Assembly: GCA_027066325.1 (NCBI GenBank)
Contig: JAMONY010000046.1
Coordinates: 1-32,909, forward strand
DNA length: 32,909 bases
Source of the DNA: Helicobacteraceae bacterium
GTDB taxonomy: Bacteria; Campylobacterota; Campylobacteria; Campylobacterales; Sulfurimonadaceae
Direction: 5' to 3'
Made by a program: the position numbers and the translations under genes. Under the pieces are notes generated by a model, which was given only the letters and a program-made list of their open reading frames with translations, ran no database searches and was not told the origin of the DNA. This document shows, in pieces, positions 4,754 through 23,041 of this stretch (positions are counted from its first letter, which is position 1; each line of letters opens with the position of its first letter).

Positions 4754-5572
4754 CTATTTTGCTTCAACTCTAAGTCCTGATTTTAGATTTTTTCTACTGT
4801 AAAGGTCTGCTATCTTGACATACTCTGCTCTATCTGGCAGATCTACTTTAACTTTACGACTTCTCTCATCTTGTTGTATCACCTCTAAAACATTTAACTT
4901 GTAGTCATAAATCACTATGTAAGGGTACCAACTGTTTGCTTTTAGACTCCAAAGATTTAGCCGCCTTAGCTCAGATACATCTAACCATATAGGATACTGA
5001 AGTCTTTTTATCTTTTTTGTCTCACCGCGCTTAAGTGGAGCAAGGGCTAGATGAGCTTGAGCTGTATCTACAGTGTAGACCCACTCATTTGCACTCACCT
5101 TCTCAATAGAGACAATAGAGGCTCCTCGTAGCTTTAAAGCTCTTTGGAAAAGGGTAGGATCAATGGCTCGCTCTGCTCTAAGATAGATCTTATCTACCAG
5201 CTCATGCTCTTGCACCCGCACCTCTGCACTTAGATAATTTTGGTAACCAAGATCTCTTAAAACCTCATCCAATATTGCTGTAAAAAAGAGGGGATCTGCA
5301 TTGCCTTTAAGTGTAAGAGATAGGTCTTGTGAGCTATCTAGTTTGAGTGACAGTAGCCTATTGGCTTGTAGCTCTTCTGCTACCTTAACCACATCAACAC
5401 CACCGTCTACTATAAAATCTCTCTCTCTTTCGAAAAGTACACCGATCAGAGCTCTATGTTTAGAGTAGTTATGCTCACCTATGAGCGCCACTATACTACT
5501 AGAAAGCTGGACACTTTGAGCATATAGTGTAGTACCAAATACAAAGATACAAATTAGCGCATATCTCACCAC
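4754..5572 (-). CDS. Periplasmic protein of unknown function (Cj0151c-type)
   Basis: A 272-residue protein with a clear signal peptide: a hydrophobic run from residue 4 to 16 and a probable cleavage after LYAQ near residue 19. The mature part has no motif I recognise. Residues 20-110 alternate helix-like and hydrophobic segments. The C-terminal 80 residues contain many aromatic and beta-type residues (YPIWLDVS, WYPYIVIYD) and may form a beta-sandwich. No cysteines, repeats or lipobox are seen. Two adjacent GTG codons (5572 and 5569) could start it; the second would give a 4-base GTGA overlap with the upstream gene. In Campylobacter the same pair of genes occurs in this position, so the two products may work together in the envelope. 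Function is not assigned. Confidence 0.75.
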   Translation of the reverse strand: MVRYALICIFVFGTTLYAQSVQLSSSIVALIGEHNYSKHRALIGVLFERERDFIVDGGVDVVKVAEELQANRLLSLKLDSSQDLSLTLKGNADPLFFTAILDEVLRDLGYQNYLSAEVRVQEHELVDKIYLRAERAIDPTLFQRALKLRGASIVSIEKVSANEWVYTVDTAQAHLALAPLKRGETKKIKRLQYPIWLDVSELRRLNLWSLKANSWYPYIVIYDYKLNVLEVIQQDERSRKVKVDLPDRAEYVKIADLYSRKNLKSGLRVEAK

Positions 5573-6474
5573 AATTTTCCTCTATTGAGACGACGAAACT
5601 CATGCTCATCTATCTTGCTACATACACCATCAGCATAGAGCAACATCACCCTTTTTCGTGTCAAAAACTCTTCGCTCTCCTCACCACACTCTAGCGAAAA
5701 TTCTCCATGCCCTGTGATAATCAACCACTCTCTCAATCCGTCTAGTCTGATTGGTAGCGCAGATACTCGAGTCTCTCTTTTGTAACTCTTAAGATCTATA
5801 ATCCCCATCCATATTTTAATTTTTGGTTTTATGATTAGATTATCAAGCAGCTTGTGTGATGAACTACTACTATAACTCACAACATCTTCTACTACAACGG
5901 TGCTGTTATCATCTACCAAGTTCTGTATTGAAGATATGGAGCTAGACATGCTGTCAATGGTACTATTTGACTCCATACTCTCTATCTCTTCAAATCTTAA
6001 TCTCTCCTGCTCTTTAGCTAAACGCTCTCGTTCTAGATCTTTGCTCAATGACAACATCTCTAAGTTTTTTTTAGCTTTATCTATGGCTGTATTGTTAATC
6101 TCTATCTTCTCTTCAGAAGAGAAGCTCATAAATACAAACACTCCAACTAAAAGTGTCAATATAAGAGCGGCTCCCAACATAAAGCCTACTAACTTCTCCC
6201 TCTTTCTACGCATAGCACTATTTTTAAATGGATCATTTTGGCTCTCTTGTGGAATATGCTCTTTGTGTTGACTATAGATCTCTCTAAGCTCACTTAAATC
6301 TACACCATATTCACGCTCCAAAATTCTAATAAATCCTACAAATTGAGTTGGCGTAAAACTATCTATATTCTGCTCTAAAAGTAGCTCTAAATTAGCTGGT
6401 GCAATGTGCGTCTGCTTACTTATAGCATCAACACCTATCTCCTGTAGTTTCTCTATCTCTTTTGATAAACTCAT
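5566..6474 (-). CDS. Bitopic inner-membrane protein with RodZ-like architecture, function unknown (Cj0152c-type)
   Basis: 302 residues. Residues 1-70 look like a cytoplasmic helix-turn-helix-type helical domain (repeated acidic/hydrophobic helices with ISKQTHIAPANLELLLEQ). They are followed by a basic patch MRRKREK near 88 and a single membrane segment at about 94-115. A charged, partly coiled region (about 125-165) and a Ser-rich linker (about 165-210) come next. The final 90 residues are periplasmic and beta-rich, starting at IWMGIIDLKS. This order (HTH-like, basic, one TM, linker, C-terminal beta domain) is that of RodZ, the MreB partner in cell shape, although similarity is weak and the assignment is inference. 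It overlaps its neighbours by 4 bases (ATGA) upstream and about 7 downstream, so coupled translation is likely. Confidence 0.72.
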   Translation of the reverse strand: MSLSKEIEKLQEIGVDAISKQTHIAPANLELLLEQNIDSFTPTQFVGFIRILEREYGVDLSELREIYSQHKEHIPQESQNDPFKNSAMRRKREKLVGFMLGAALILTLLVGVFVFMSFSSEEKIEINNTAIDKAKKNLEMLSLSKDLERERLAKEQERLRFEEIESMESNSTIDSMSSSISSIQNLVDDNSTVVVEDVVSYSSSSSHKLLDNLIIKPKIKIWMGIIDLKSYKRETRVSALPIRLDGLREWLIITGHGEFSLECGEESEEFLTRKRVMLLYADGVCSKIDEHEFRRLNRGKLW

Positions 6475-7148
6475 CTTAACCTCTGCATCAATATGGCACC
6501 AGCCGCACTCACATTGAGAGAGTTGAACTTATGTGTCATCTCTATCTTGAGTATCTTATCTAGACGGCGTAATGCTCTAGATGGTATGCCGCTATCTTCA
6601 CTGCCAAGCAGAAGTGTCCGCTTGCCACTAAACTCAATCTTTTCTATATCACAACCACTCATATCAGCTCCATAAAGTTTGTGAGATGCATTTTTCAGCT
6701 CCGTCATCACATCATATAGATTATCTGCCACATAAAATGGCATATCCAATAGAGCCCCTGCGCTACTACGCACAACAGCCTCCTGCTTTAAAGATCTAAT
6801 ACCTGTAATCACAACAGCACCTACCCCTAAAGCGTAAGCTGTCCTAATAAGCGCACCGATATTACCCATATCAGTAAGCATACAGAGTACAAGTACAAAC
6901 TCACACTGAGCCACACTTTTGAGATCACTCTGCTCTAGCTCATCTATATCAGCAAGATAGCCTTGATGATTTCCACTTCTGCTCATCTGCACAGCAGCAT
7001 TTGCCGGTATGCGTTTAAGCTCAAAGTCATAGCGCATAAGTGCACTATACTCTTTTTGATCGATATCTTTAGAGATATAGAGTGTAGATATTTTACTACT
7101 ATGGTGTTCTATGGCATATTTGACTGGTTGCTTACCGTATATTAACAT
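6471..7148 (-). CDS. TrmH/SpoU-family RNA 2'-O-methyltransferase (RlmB-like)
   Basis: A 225-residue SPOUT methyltransferase that should methylate a ribose 2'-OH in rRNA, most likely a guanosine of 23S rRNA as RlmB does. The short N-terminal substrate-binding domain begins YGKQPVKYAIE. The catalytic domain has the three family motifs: motif 1 at about residues 92-104 (LTDMGNIGALIRTA, where the family has DP.N.GA..R.A), motif 2 LLGSEDSGIP near 180, and motif 3 SLNVSAAGAILM near 210. The AdoMet site is the trefoil knot made by motifs 2 and 3. Its stop codon overlaps the next start as ATGA. The exact target nucleotide is not decidable here. Only a weak Shine-Dalgarno is seen before the ATG at 7148. 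Confidence 0.88.
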   Translation of the reverse strand: MLIYGKQPVKYAIEHHSSKISTLYISKDIDQKEYSALMRYDFELKRIPANAAVQMSRSGNHQGYLADIDELEQSDLKSVAQCEFVLVLCMLTDMGNIGALIRTAYALGVGAVVITGIRSLKQEAVVRSSAGALLDMPFYVADNLYDVMTELKNASHKLYGADMSGCDIEKIEFSGKRTLLLGSEDSGIPSRALRRLDKILKIEMTHKFNSLNVSAAGAILMQRLR

Positions 7149-7181
7149 ATTGAGATTGTACCCAAAAGTAGCTAATACAAA

Positions 7182-8306: not shown

Positions 8307-11300
8307 TTAGTCTCTGAAGGATAGAGTCTCTCTTCGTCTGCGGTAGAGTAGAGTGTAAGCACTAAGAGCTATCAGGAGTGCGAGCACAAATCTTCCAATC
8401 TCACCTATAGTAGGCACCTCAACTGGTTTTTTTGCTACAGTAGGATCTGTGTCACCAAGTGGAATTGGATCATCACTAAGCGTAGACTCATTTCTCTCTA
8501 CTGTGCCATCTCCATTGTGATCCCAAAAAGCTATAGCTTGATTTTCAACCTCCAAAACTGCATTTGCTACATCAGTTCTAAATGTTATCACAACCTCATT
8601 ATCTGAATCATCTTCACTAGTTCCACCAATATCTGAACCTATGGAGCCCTCCCAGTAGACTGTATGTGTCACAGAGTCGTACTCACATCTAGTTGTAGCA
8701 GAGACCCCTCTAGGTTCACAATTTAACGAGCCAGAAACATATGTAAGATCGCTACTTAACGGATCTTCTACTACGATATTGTATGCTACTGCATTGGCAT
8801 CATTAATCCAAACCATCTTCCACTCTATCTCTGGCCAACCAGCTGCATTAACTCTCTTTTTTGCACTTGGAGGGTCAAAAACATTTGTATACATAGTCAC
8901 GATACCCATATCCCAAGTAAGATCATTCTCACCTGCAGTTAGTGTTGTCACAGCTGTTCTTAAAGTTGTTGCGTCAGTATCGCTATCTACTGCCCCATCA
9001 GCTCCCACGCCTTGTGGAGACACTGCATATCCTACTGGTAGCGTAAAGCTTACAAAATAATCACCTGGTATAAGATCCGTAAACTTATATGCTCCTGTGG
9101 TGGTTGTTATGGTGGAGATTAGCGCATTGGTTGTGCCATTATATAGAGTTACATTAATCTCTTCGGTTACATTTAACTCATCTGCATCTTGTATGCCATC
9201 TGCATCTGCATCAAACCAGATTCTATTGCCTATGCTAGCTGGTTGATAGAAACCAAAATCTACAGTTAGATTGTCGTTATTATCATCTGTGCCGTTGACA
9301 TCGCTTCCTGCTAGCCCATCCTCTGCGGTTGGTTCGCTATCGTTGGTAAGCGTAATAAGTCCGCTTGTGTAACTTCCATCTGCATTATCTATTTTTATGT
9401 TTGAGTCGGTTGCTGTATCATCATTGTCAGATATATTTTGAACTGGTGATGGCACATATCCAGATGGCGGAGTCACTCTGATTGAGTAGTTGCCCTCATC
9501 TAGATTACTAAAATAATATAGCCCATCCATAGATGTTGTTTTAGTATCTATAACTGTGCCGTTACCATCTAGCAACTCTACAAGCGCACCAGATATAGGT
9601 GTTTCGGTTGCATCTTGTAACCCATTACCATCTGAATCATTCCATATTAATGAGCCCACAGAGAGTGCTGGTGCTGAAAAACCAAAATCCAAAGTATGAT
9701 TACTCTCACCAGCCCTGCCTGTTGTATAGGCTATGGTTGAAAAATTAGCATTTAGATCTCCGTTGTCACCATCACTATCTCTCTGATCTGCGCTTAAAGC
9801 ATCTTGCACTGTTACCACCAAAGATGCTAATGGCGCATTTGTAGATAGTGGAACCCTTATCTGATAGTCTGTATTGTACTTAAGCGATACTCCACCAGCA
9901 CTATTTAATCCACCAAAATAGTATGTTCCACTACTATCTGTTGTAGTAGTTCCAACTAGCACAGACCCCTCATATAGCTCAACTACAACTCCACTCAAAG
10001 CTGGCTCATCAGGGTCTTGAATGCCGTCCCTATCAATATCGTTCCATATGTAGTTACCTATCTCTATTGGTGCTGGATCACATAACGCTTCCATATCACC
10101 AATACCACTTGCTTTACCATAAAAAAAGGCTCCATTATCTTTTGAAACAAGGAGTCTTTTAGGTCTGCTAGATCCATCTAAGCTAACTGTACCATCATCA
10201 TTTCTAAGCCATATCAGACCGTTATCAACACCACCACCTTGAGAGTCCATTACACCCGTTACAATATCTGGATATCCTGCTATATACAGAAGTCCTCCCA
10301 TGGTAGTTTCAGAGTGTCCGCTACTACCTCCGTTGACATTACCATTACCGCCTGGTCCATTATCGTACCAATAGTACTCTCCTCCTCCTAAGCCTTCGCC
10401 ACTACCTGCCCCGCCTGTAGTAGAGCCTCCACAAGTTCCATTGCTCTCAAGAGTCCACCCAAGCTCTGCATTACCACAAGCTCTCAATAGATCCCCATAA
10501 CTATTACCATTTTGGCTAGTGAAATCTGTTGAGTCTGGTGAGTGGTTGTTGTGTCCTGTTCTATCTCCGTTGATATCTTTTATCTGGATAATCATAGAGC
10601 CATCATAGTCAAACTCTATATCTGAAAGGAGTGGTTGTTGGTACTCAAGGTAAGCATCTTGATTACCGATATTGCCAGGTTTTTTATCATTAAAAACAAT
10701 ATCATAATCCATCTGCCATGGATTCCAATCAGCAGTAAATGGATGTGTTGCTCCATCTTTATCTGTAAACTGGTGACAACTACCTGGAGGGTTTGTATTG
10801 CTTATATTGCTATCATATGAGCAACCTCTACTATATGTAAGATCTATATCTAAAACTGGTGTAGGAGCAAATGTACTAAGAGCTGGATCAAAACTATAGA
10901 TATGTGCGGATAACTGGCTTCTATCGCCATACCTAGCGCCACCATAACTATCATCAGGATCATTGATATTTACAGTTGATTCTGCTGTACATGTCACACC
11001 CACATAAAGCTTACCATCATTAAAACCTAAACCCATAGGACGAAAATCTTGTAGCGTTGGGCAAGGGTTTGGGATAGAGTGGATACTATAGCTACTGATA
11101 TTGGCACTTATATCGATACCATAAACATCAAGCGTTCTTTGCCCCATGTTGATGGCAAAAAGCTTTGATTCATCATCTGAGATCTCTATGTCTCCAACAC
11201 CAACTTTACCTACACTTGCATACCCTTGTGTATCATGGGTCCAATCATAAGGCATAGCAGTACGCGGATCTGTATTGCCTGGTAAATTAGCAAATGTTGA

Positions 11301-11963
11301 AACCGCATTTGCGTTATTGTGCTCAAGCTTATATATAGTGCCTGGACCGCCTGAGCCCAGATCAGAATGTCTCTTAAAATATGCAGAGACCAAAGTTATG
11401 TTTGCCATCTTAAGATGAGCAACACCATACACAGAGCCTAAATCAGAGTATGTGGCCAAACCTGCTGGAGTATCAGTTCCATTTGCACTATATGGAAACT
11501 GCAACAAGACATTAACAGCAGAACCGTTACCATCACGAGCATCTTTTGTAAACCTTGTCAAAATGATCTCAGGGTCAGCTTGACAATACTCTCCAGAACT
11601 ATCAAGACCAACATTGTGTATCTGCGCATCTGCTACTATGCTAACCAAAGCAGACCCGTTACTATCAGCTGCTAAACCAGAGTGGAGATAGCTTGGTAGC
11701 CCACTAATCTCAACCCTATAAGATCCAGAAGTAGTTGCTAAATGATAGCTACCATTTAGATCAGTTACTGCAGATATTGACACTCCTGCGGCATCATATG
11801 CTGTAACATTAATACCCGATACACCAGGCTCCAATCCATCTTGTGTGCCATTAAGATTGTAGTCTCTAAAAACTGTGCCATCTATGCTTGATAGCAGAAC
11901 CGTTGGCATCAAAACCAGCCCAATAGTTAAAAAAATAGCTACTTTTACTCTTCTAAAGTCCAT
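8307..11963 (-). CDS. Large exported SdrD-B-repeat protein with IPTL-CTERM-like C-terminal anchor
   Basis: 1218 residues. The signal peptide spans about 1-25 (hydrophobic core FLTIGLVLMPTVLL). Four SdrD-B-type beta-sandwich domains carry the signature of the DGxQDxxE calcium loop: near residues 25-120, 634-762, 768-905 and 909-1020. Between the first and second lies a region of about 500 residues (130-630) with blade-like segments (IEISDDESKLFAINMG) and a Gly-rich stretch at 512-550, possibly a beta-propeller. Residues 1030-1140 resemble a DUF11-type repeat. The tail has VPTIGEIG at 1183-1190, a hydrophobic helix, then RRRR, the three-part plan of IPTL-CTERM sorting signals handled by exosortase-like enzymes. 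The usual Trp is Ile here. A surface or matrix role is inferred. It has its own likely promoter and sits between rpmE and rsmE, which are adjacent in Campylobacter, so it appears to be an insertion. Confidence 0.85.
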   Translation of the reverse strand: MDFRRVKVAIFLTIGLVLMPTVLLSSIDGTVFRDYNLNGTQDGLEPGVSGINVTAYDAAGVSISAVTDLNGSYHLATTSGSYRVEISGLPSYLHSGLAADSNGSALVSIVADAQIHNVGLDSSGEYCQADPEIILTRFTKDARDGNGSAVNVLLQFPYSANGTDTPAGLATYSDLGSVYGVAHLKMANITLVSAYFKRHSDLGSGGPGTIYKLEHNNANAVSTFANLPGNTDPRTAMPYDWTHDTQGYASVGKVGVGDIEISDDESKLFAINMGQRTLDVYGIDISANISSYSIHSIPNPCPTLQDFRPMGLGFNDGKLYVGVTCTAESTVNINDPDDSYGGARYGDRSQLSAHIYSFDPALSTFAPTPVLDIDLTYSRGCSYDSNISNTNPPGSCHQFTDKDGATHPFTADWNPWQMDYDIVFNDKKPGNIGNQDAYLEYQQPLLSDIEFDYDGSMIIQIKDINGDRTGHNNHSPDSTDFTSQNGNSYGDLLRACGNAELGWTLESNGTCGGSTTGGAGSGEGLGGGEYYWYDNGPGGNGNVNGGSSGHSETTMGGLLYIAGYPDIVTGVMDSQGGGVDNGLIWLRNDDGTVSLDGSSRPKRLLVSKDNGAFFYGKASGIGDMEALCDPAPIEIGNYIWNDIDRDGIQDPDEPALSGVVVELYEGSVLVGTTTTDSSGTYYFGGLNSAGGVSLKYNTDYQIRVPLSTNAPLASLVVTVQDALSADQRDSDGDNGDLNANFSTIAYTTGRAGESNHTLDFGFSAPALSVGSLIWNDSDGNGLQDATETPISGALVELLDGNGTVIDTKTTSMDGLYYFSNLDEGNYSIRVTPPSGYVPSPVQNISDNDDTATDSNIKIDNADGSYTSGLITLTNDSEPTAEDGLAGSDVNGTDDNNDNLTVDFGFYQPASIGNRIWFDADADGIQDADELNVTEEINVTLYNGTTNALISTITTTTGAYKFTDLIPGDYFVSFTLPVGYAVSPQGVGADGAVDSDTDATTLRTAVTTLTAGENDLTWDMGIVTMYTNVFDPPSAKKRVNAAGWPEIEWKMVWINDANAVAYNIVVEDPLSSDLTYVSGSLNCEPRGVSATTRCEYDSVTHTVYWEGSIGSDIGGTSEDDSDNEVVITFRTDVANAVLEVENQAIAFWDHNGDGTVERNESTLSDDPIPLGDTDPTVAKKPVEVPTIGEIGRFVLALLIALSAYTLLYRRRRETLSFRD

Positions 11964-14358: not shown

Positions 14359-23041
<8,683 letters not shown>

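Follow-up and report, generated by a model that had tools for sequence, protein, structure and literature searches.

P0001, the 302-residue product of a reading frame with an ATG start at positions 5566..6474 of the (-) strand of the window (the whole analysed stretch of 32,909 nucleotides), is quite probably the RodZ of the Campylobacterota, diverged beyond routine detection and having an altered MreB contact. RodZ is the membrane protein by which MreB, the bacterial actin, is connected with wall synthesis. The original prediction had recognized the domain order of RodZ in this RodZ-like, presumably bitopic membrane protein, and the same order (HTH domain, basic patch, one membrane helix, linker and C-terminal beta domain) was found in the sequence and in the AlphaFold2 model. 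The reading as a RodZ counterpart was supported, since the HTH appeared clearly RodZ-type, and the C-terminal domain weakly but specifically RodZ_C-like. Profile comparison with RodZ, which had been proposed as the test that could overturn this reading, revealed similarity in both domains (97% and 32-46%, respectively), hence the reading was not refuted. P0001 has in common with E. coli RodZ (YfgA) the domain order, the HTH_25-type HTH, the basic juxtamembrane run, the single membrane helix, the variable linker and the C-terminal beta domain with a leading Trp. It differs in the shorter first helix of the HTH, in the loss of the F60-equivalent aromatic residue and in an added NxGKxW tail, and its RodZ_C similarity is weak and could be seen only by our own profiles.

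The cytoplasmic HTH domain of RodZ/HTH_25 type covers residues 1-72 (6259..6474, (-)) and carries Q44 and G47-F48; it was delimited by AlphaFold2, HTH_25, hhalign and VIA-align. The N-terminal fold was predicted to be an HTH of five short helices at residues 3-72, with pLDDT 95-98 (AlphaFold2, 40-sequence alignment). When P0001 alone was scanned against Pfam and NCBIfam, only chance linker or coiled-coil matches and no HTH family were obtained; when the whole genome was scanned, the HTH of P0001 reached 13.5 bits (E 0.109) with HTH_25 (PF13413), below the cut-off of 24.6 bits. Of 40 family members, 16 matched HTH_25 at E<=0.1, the best of them with E 8.6e-9; the next most frequent family was matched by 3, and XRE-type HTH families were absent among the 25 Pfam families listed for these 40 members. 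The HTH_25 match is over the cut-off for locus L034 and at the cut-off for L036. Over-cut-off HTH_25 matches occurred in 11 of 200 phylum genomes, and 10 of the 11 loci belong to the P0001 family, the exception being L043.

For the hhalign comparison a RodZ HTH profile of 66 sequences, including E. coli, was used (15 of 81 RodZ sequences were unfit for the regex and were left out). The 40-member N-terminal domain matched it with 97% probability over 61 columns and a score of 59; with 79 members, a set which contains near-identical copies, the probability was 97.2%. The reversed profile gave 0.1%, and the scores of 200 column shuffles did not exceed 20, none of them (0/200) reaching the real one; the hhalign E-values hold for one comparison. 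Searching viral contigs with E. coli RodZ gave no match. Among known structures, the top VIA-align match of the HTH domain was S. aureus YmfM (PDB 3fym, Z 6.5, rmsd 3.6, 73 residues, model residues 2-78), which we take to be a RodZ relative; it is the best structural match at 14% identity, and the PDB chain of this coccal protein holds the N-terminal part only (130 residues). The next match, a DNA-binding protein, had Z 4.5. Since a VIA-align Z under 8, as that of YmfM, may mean merely a common arrangement, it is the sequence evidence that carries the RodZ claim for the HTH. The family profile matched 3fym among PDB sequences at E 0.03, which was the best meaningful PDB sequence match. Foldseek found no PDB match to the P0001 model at E<=0.001, and T. 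maritima RodZ was absent among the VIA-align matches listed, which excludes nothing. Judged from the profiles, the HTH of P0001 can clearly be assigned to the RodZ type at family level.

The C-terminal domain (residues 208-302; 5569..5853, (-)) is predicted by AlphaFold2 and profiles to be a periplasmic, nine-stranded, RodZ_C-like domain with the family-specific NxGKxW tail. In the model the nine strands lie at residues 212-287 and are followed by a short helix, to about residue 296, with pLDDT mostly 93-98. A WxGxID start like that of the RodZ C-terminal domain had been claimed for it, and this proved correct: the start reads W222-M-G-I-I-D, W222 is invariant in 40/40 sequences, and in the alignment it falls on the RodZ_C Trp, G-H-G being placed on the RodZ_C G-N-A. 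No member of the P0001 family reached Pfam RodZ_C (PF13464). Matches to PF13464 were present in 4 of 200 phylum genomes; these lie in frames of 731-759 aa, not in the P0001 gene, and were rejected as candidates.

A separate RodZ_C profile was built from 32 of the 81 RodZ sequences, those whose tail resembled RodZ_C by eye; sequences with PASTA-like or low-complexity tails, or with a cut tail, were dropped. Against this profile hhalign gave 46% (40 members) and 32% (79 members) over 63-64 columns. The score was 27.2; shuffles gave at most 16.9, and 0/200 reached the real value. Unrelated real profiles (P0002, PASTA) remained under 1%, and undoubted RodZ_C clades matched each other at 95-97%, the C-terminal domain of the P0001 family being far below this. 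When 1205 ORFs of phylum loci were searched with a RodZ_C HMM, the best 8 all belonged to the P0001 family and were matched at the C-terminal domain; the best E (9.7e-5) was that of locus L202, Helicobacter-like by its proteins, and P0001 itself was not among the matches listed. The periplasmic part of B. subtilis RodZ is described as disordered stretches and then a nine-stranded folded domain (PMC6946637, excerpt), and the P0001 model, with disorder followed by nine strands, matches this description. The weak but specific similarity suggests, if weakly, a remote homology of the two C-terminal domains that is real.

The basic juxtamembrane run MRRKREK (residues 88-94; 6193..6213, (-)), found in the sequence, is followed by the single membrane-spanning helix at about residues 95-117 (6124..6192, (-)), assigned from the hydrophobic segment and AlphaFold2, where this segment is contained in a long helix at residues 82-117. 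The family members have one hydrophobic segment (median start 99), and the charge before it exceeds the charge after it in 68/79, i.e. it is more positive toward the HTH side. The topology predicted in this way is bitopic, with the HTH inside and the beta domain outside. The periplasmic linker (5863..6090, (-)) is variable in the alignment. Its description as a low-complexity linker stood for residues 169-204, predicted by AlphaFold2 to be disordered, but not for residues 129-168, where a long helix is predicted.

The P0001 gene stands between the gene of an rRNA methylase of the SpoU family, which precedes it in the run (6471..7148, (-); Pfam SpoU_methylase E 2e-33) and the gene of a putative periplasmic partner, P0002 (4754..5572, (-); 272 aa, GTG start). 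Its frame overlaps the stop of the SpoU methylase by 4 nt (6471-6474) and the GTG start of P0002 by 7 nt (5566-5572), therefore P0001 is likely coupled in translation to both neighbours, as had been predicted for the periplasmic gene. The gene run is rpmE (L31), a tetrapyrrole-methylase-family gene (RsmI by its position), SpoU methylase, P0001, P0002, aminotransferase and homoserine dehydrogenase; the E. coli rodZ locus, in contrast, has ispG/rlmN. This order fits the region cj0155c-0151c / hp0551-0555, which is conserved throughout Epsilonproteobacteria (PMC3847290, excerpt). By gene order P0001 would be the counterpart of Cj0152c/HP0554, the fourth gene of that region, and P0002 that of Cj0151c/HP0555. 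A leaderless promoter arrangement is described for cj0153c in the same excerpted source. The sequence TACAAT (7155..7160, (-)), six bases ahead of the SpoU methylase ATG (window 7149-7160), fits a promoter of this kind and likely serves as the -10 element for a transcript that begins, leaderless, at that ATG, so that P0001 and P0002 are probably on the same transcript. P0002 adjoins P0001 in 86 of 92 loci and the SpoU gene does so in 89 (the loci are redundant, near-identical copies included, and in some of the exceptions P0002 may have scored under the cut-off or may lie beyond the stretch); no P0001 homolog adjoining mre genes was seen in the loci read.

Elsewhere in the window, 8307-11963 encodes a secreted protein of 1218 aa. 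It contains four SdrD_B stretches, and basic residues come after the membrane segment at its C-terminus; judged by eye, it would be an exosortase-type or surface-anchored protein. The rpoB and rpoC genes are separate (14359-23017, (-)), their listed frames overlapping by 41 bases.

The model of P0002 is confident (pLDDT 93, pTM 0.84) and consists of an N-terminal signal-peptide-like helix, two alpha/beta repeats and a C-terminal beta sandwich. A Pfam scan of P0002 gave no match. The sandwich is nearest to collagenase collagen-binding/PPC domains (Z 8.3, 90 residues; Foldseek E 3.8e-4), a likeness too general to assign a function. Both Cj0151c and Cj0152c are essential in C. jejuni (PMC10077673, excerpt), and P0002 would accordingly be essential by its gene-order counterpart.

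A scan of genome contigs with the single P0001 sequence found no relative. Homologs were recognized in 97 of the 101 genomes of its family (79/79 among those at least 90% complete) and in 194 of 200 sampled phylum genomes, representing 45 of 47 genera; P0001 is therefore not a chance ORF. The six genomes without P0001 are all in one family (f7; five of genus g25 and one of g50), and all of them have kept MreB and a P0002 homolog. In four of the six (loci L160-L163, genomes G273, G126, G215 and G108, respectively) P0002 comes immediately after the SpoU gene, so that P0001 is cleanly missing from its usual place; this natural loss could show what replaces P0001. The same group includes G200 and G219, likewise with no detectable copy. 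A second search of the six genomes, in which the family alignment included their closest kin, gave matches nearly confined to the membrane and linker part of the profile, SPOR-like and secretion-type ORFs (by eye) among them. In two other genomes of this family the P0001 homolog is no longer beside P0002 (L168:4345-5235 and L169:4928-5731) and adjoins a riboflavin-synthase-like or transketolase-like gene, by eye.

The MreB contact deserves special attention. E. coli RodZ requires F60 and Y64 to bind MreB, and that of Chlamydia requires Y66 and F70 (PMC4047632, excerpt), and the expectation of aromatic residues at these sites rests on those E. coli and Chlamydia residues. The contact residues were placed by aligning E. 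coli G63-Y64 with G47-F48, by which F48 is the equivalent of Y64 and Q44 that of F60. The Y64-equivalent aromatic was found in 77 of 79 members: 64 by a regex, which itself demands an aromatic residue, and 13 of the other 15 by eye, the remaining 2 having leucine. The F60-equivalent aromatic is present in 1/79, and the other 78 members have a polar residue there; in the RodZ set it is found in 65/66, partly by construction, as the set was fetched with patterns one of which requires Y/F at the F60 and Y64 positions. The likeness to RodZ has two limits: Pfam RodZ_C is not matched, and one of the two aromatic MreB contacts is replaced, the other being kept. The residue next to the F60 equivalent is usually hydrophobic (F/L/V/A), and one may speculate that the contact is shifted by one residue.

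MreB was detected in 200/200 phylum genomes, so that its co-occurrence with P0001 (194/200, six exceptions) discriminates little. MreD was over the cut-off in 0/200. A hidden MreD was considered, since sub-cut-off PF04093 (MreD) matches occurred in 16 of the 200 genomes, but nearly all of these lie in frames of 450-840 aa. In the genome of P0001 an ORF that is MreC-like by position and by eye comes after mreB (G000:C12:15827-16810), and the ORF after that is unlike MreD. We regard it as likely, by inference, that P0001 works through MreB. It is unlikely, yet deserves consideration, that P0001 is a RodZ descendant whose HTH binds, in place of MreB, some other protein of the cytoplasm (a bactofilin, a division protein or a wall-precursor protein), so that it is no MreB adaptor. 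The polar residue at the F60 position, the family's own signature ILEREYxVDLS, the six genomes which retain MreB without P0001 and the RodZ noted in cocci without MreB (PMC6946637, excerpt) would all suit such a partner, but the kept Y64-equivalent aromatic, the hydrophobic residue often found one position on from the lost one, and the universal presence of MreB in the phylum argue against it.

We consider it very improbable that P0001 is a one-pass CadC/ToxR-like transcription regulator, the beta domain of which senses the periplasm and the HTH of which binds DNA. The modelled combination of an HTH fold, one membrane helix and a periplasmic beta domain would agree with this, but the HTH is acidic (median net charge of the 79 members -3, counted over their first 70 residues; RodZ set -2), its profile is RodZ-type, no DNA-binding HTH family is among the Pfam families listed, and CadC and ToxR use winged helices. 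The least probable of all is an unrelated scaffold dedicated to P0002 and resembling RodZ by convergence: the adjacency of the two genes and their shared essentiality in C. jejuni by gene-order counterpart (PMC10077673, excerpt) speak for it, but the scores of both domains against RodZ exceed those of shuffles, with the domains in the same order, and in one family the two genes lie apart or P0001 is lost and P0002 kept. Because it is kept in such genomes, P0002 cannot serve P0001 alone.

These bacteria were stated to lack RodZ and MreD (PMC3310789, excerpt), and Cj0152c is described only as a membrane protein (PMC10077673, excerpt). Among the papers listed in a literature search that covered mainly open-access journal articles, no title or abstract start named a RodZ in Campylobacterota. 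In the strain of the H. pylori MreB paper mreB is reported to be essential, and the excerpted text of that paper mentions RodZ twice, in the references (PMC7012605). The RodZ of Chlamydia (Ct009) offers a parallel: it has an HTH domain and was likewise overlooked until a directed search; unlike P0001, it has no periplasmic domain and possesses both MreB-contact aromatics, Y66 and F70 (PMC4047632, excerpt). Furthermore, E. coli rodZ is non-essential (PMC6946637, excerpt), whereas Cj0152c, the counterpart of P0001, is listed as essential (PMC10077673, excerpt).

If P0001 is the RodZ of this phylum, its acidic HTH would not read DNA; instead, the F48-carrying helix might attach it to MreB filaments beneath the inner membrane, by a contact that is rearranged at the position of E. 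coli F60. From there the signal may pass through the membrane helix and the linker to the periplasmic C-terminal domain, which could contact the wall-synthesis machinery, perhaps together with the co-translated P0002. A further-reaching proposal, which we consider doubtful, is that an essential RodZ of the Campylobacterota, Campylobacter and Helicobacter included, binds MreB via the rearranged interface, and that the missing MreD is replaced in part by the phylum-specific P0002 (by gene order Cj0151c) in transmitting the MreB signal to the wall synthase.

It should be emphasized that, if P0001 is a RodZ, its presence in almost the whole phylum would correct the reported absence (PMC3310789, excerpt) and would provide the helical-shape field with a candidate MreB anchor. 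It would also explain two essential C. jejuni genes of unknown function, and the family would represent a natural test of how the contact between RodZ and MreB can change.
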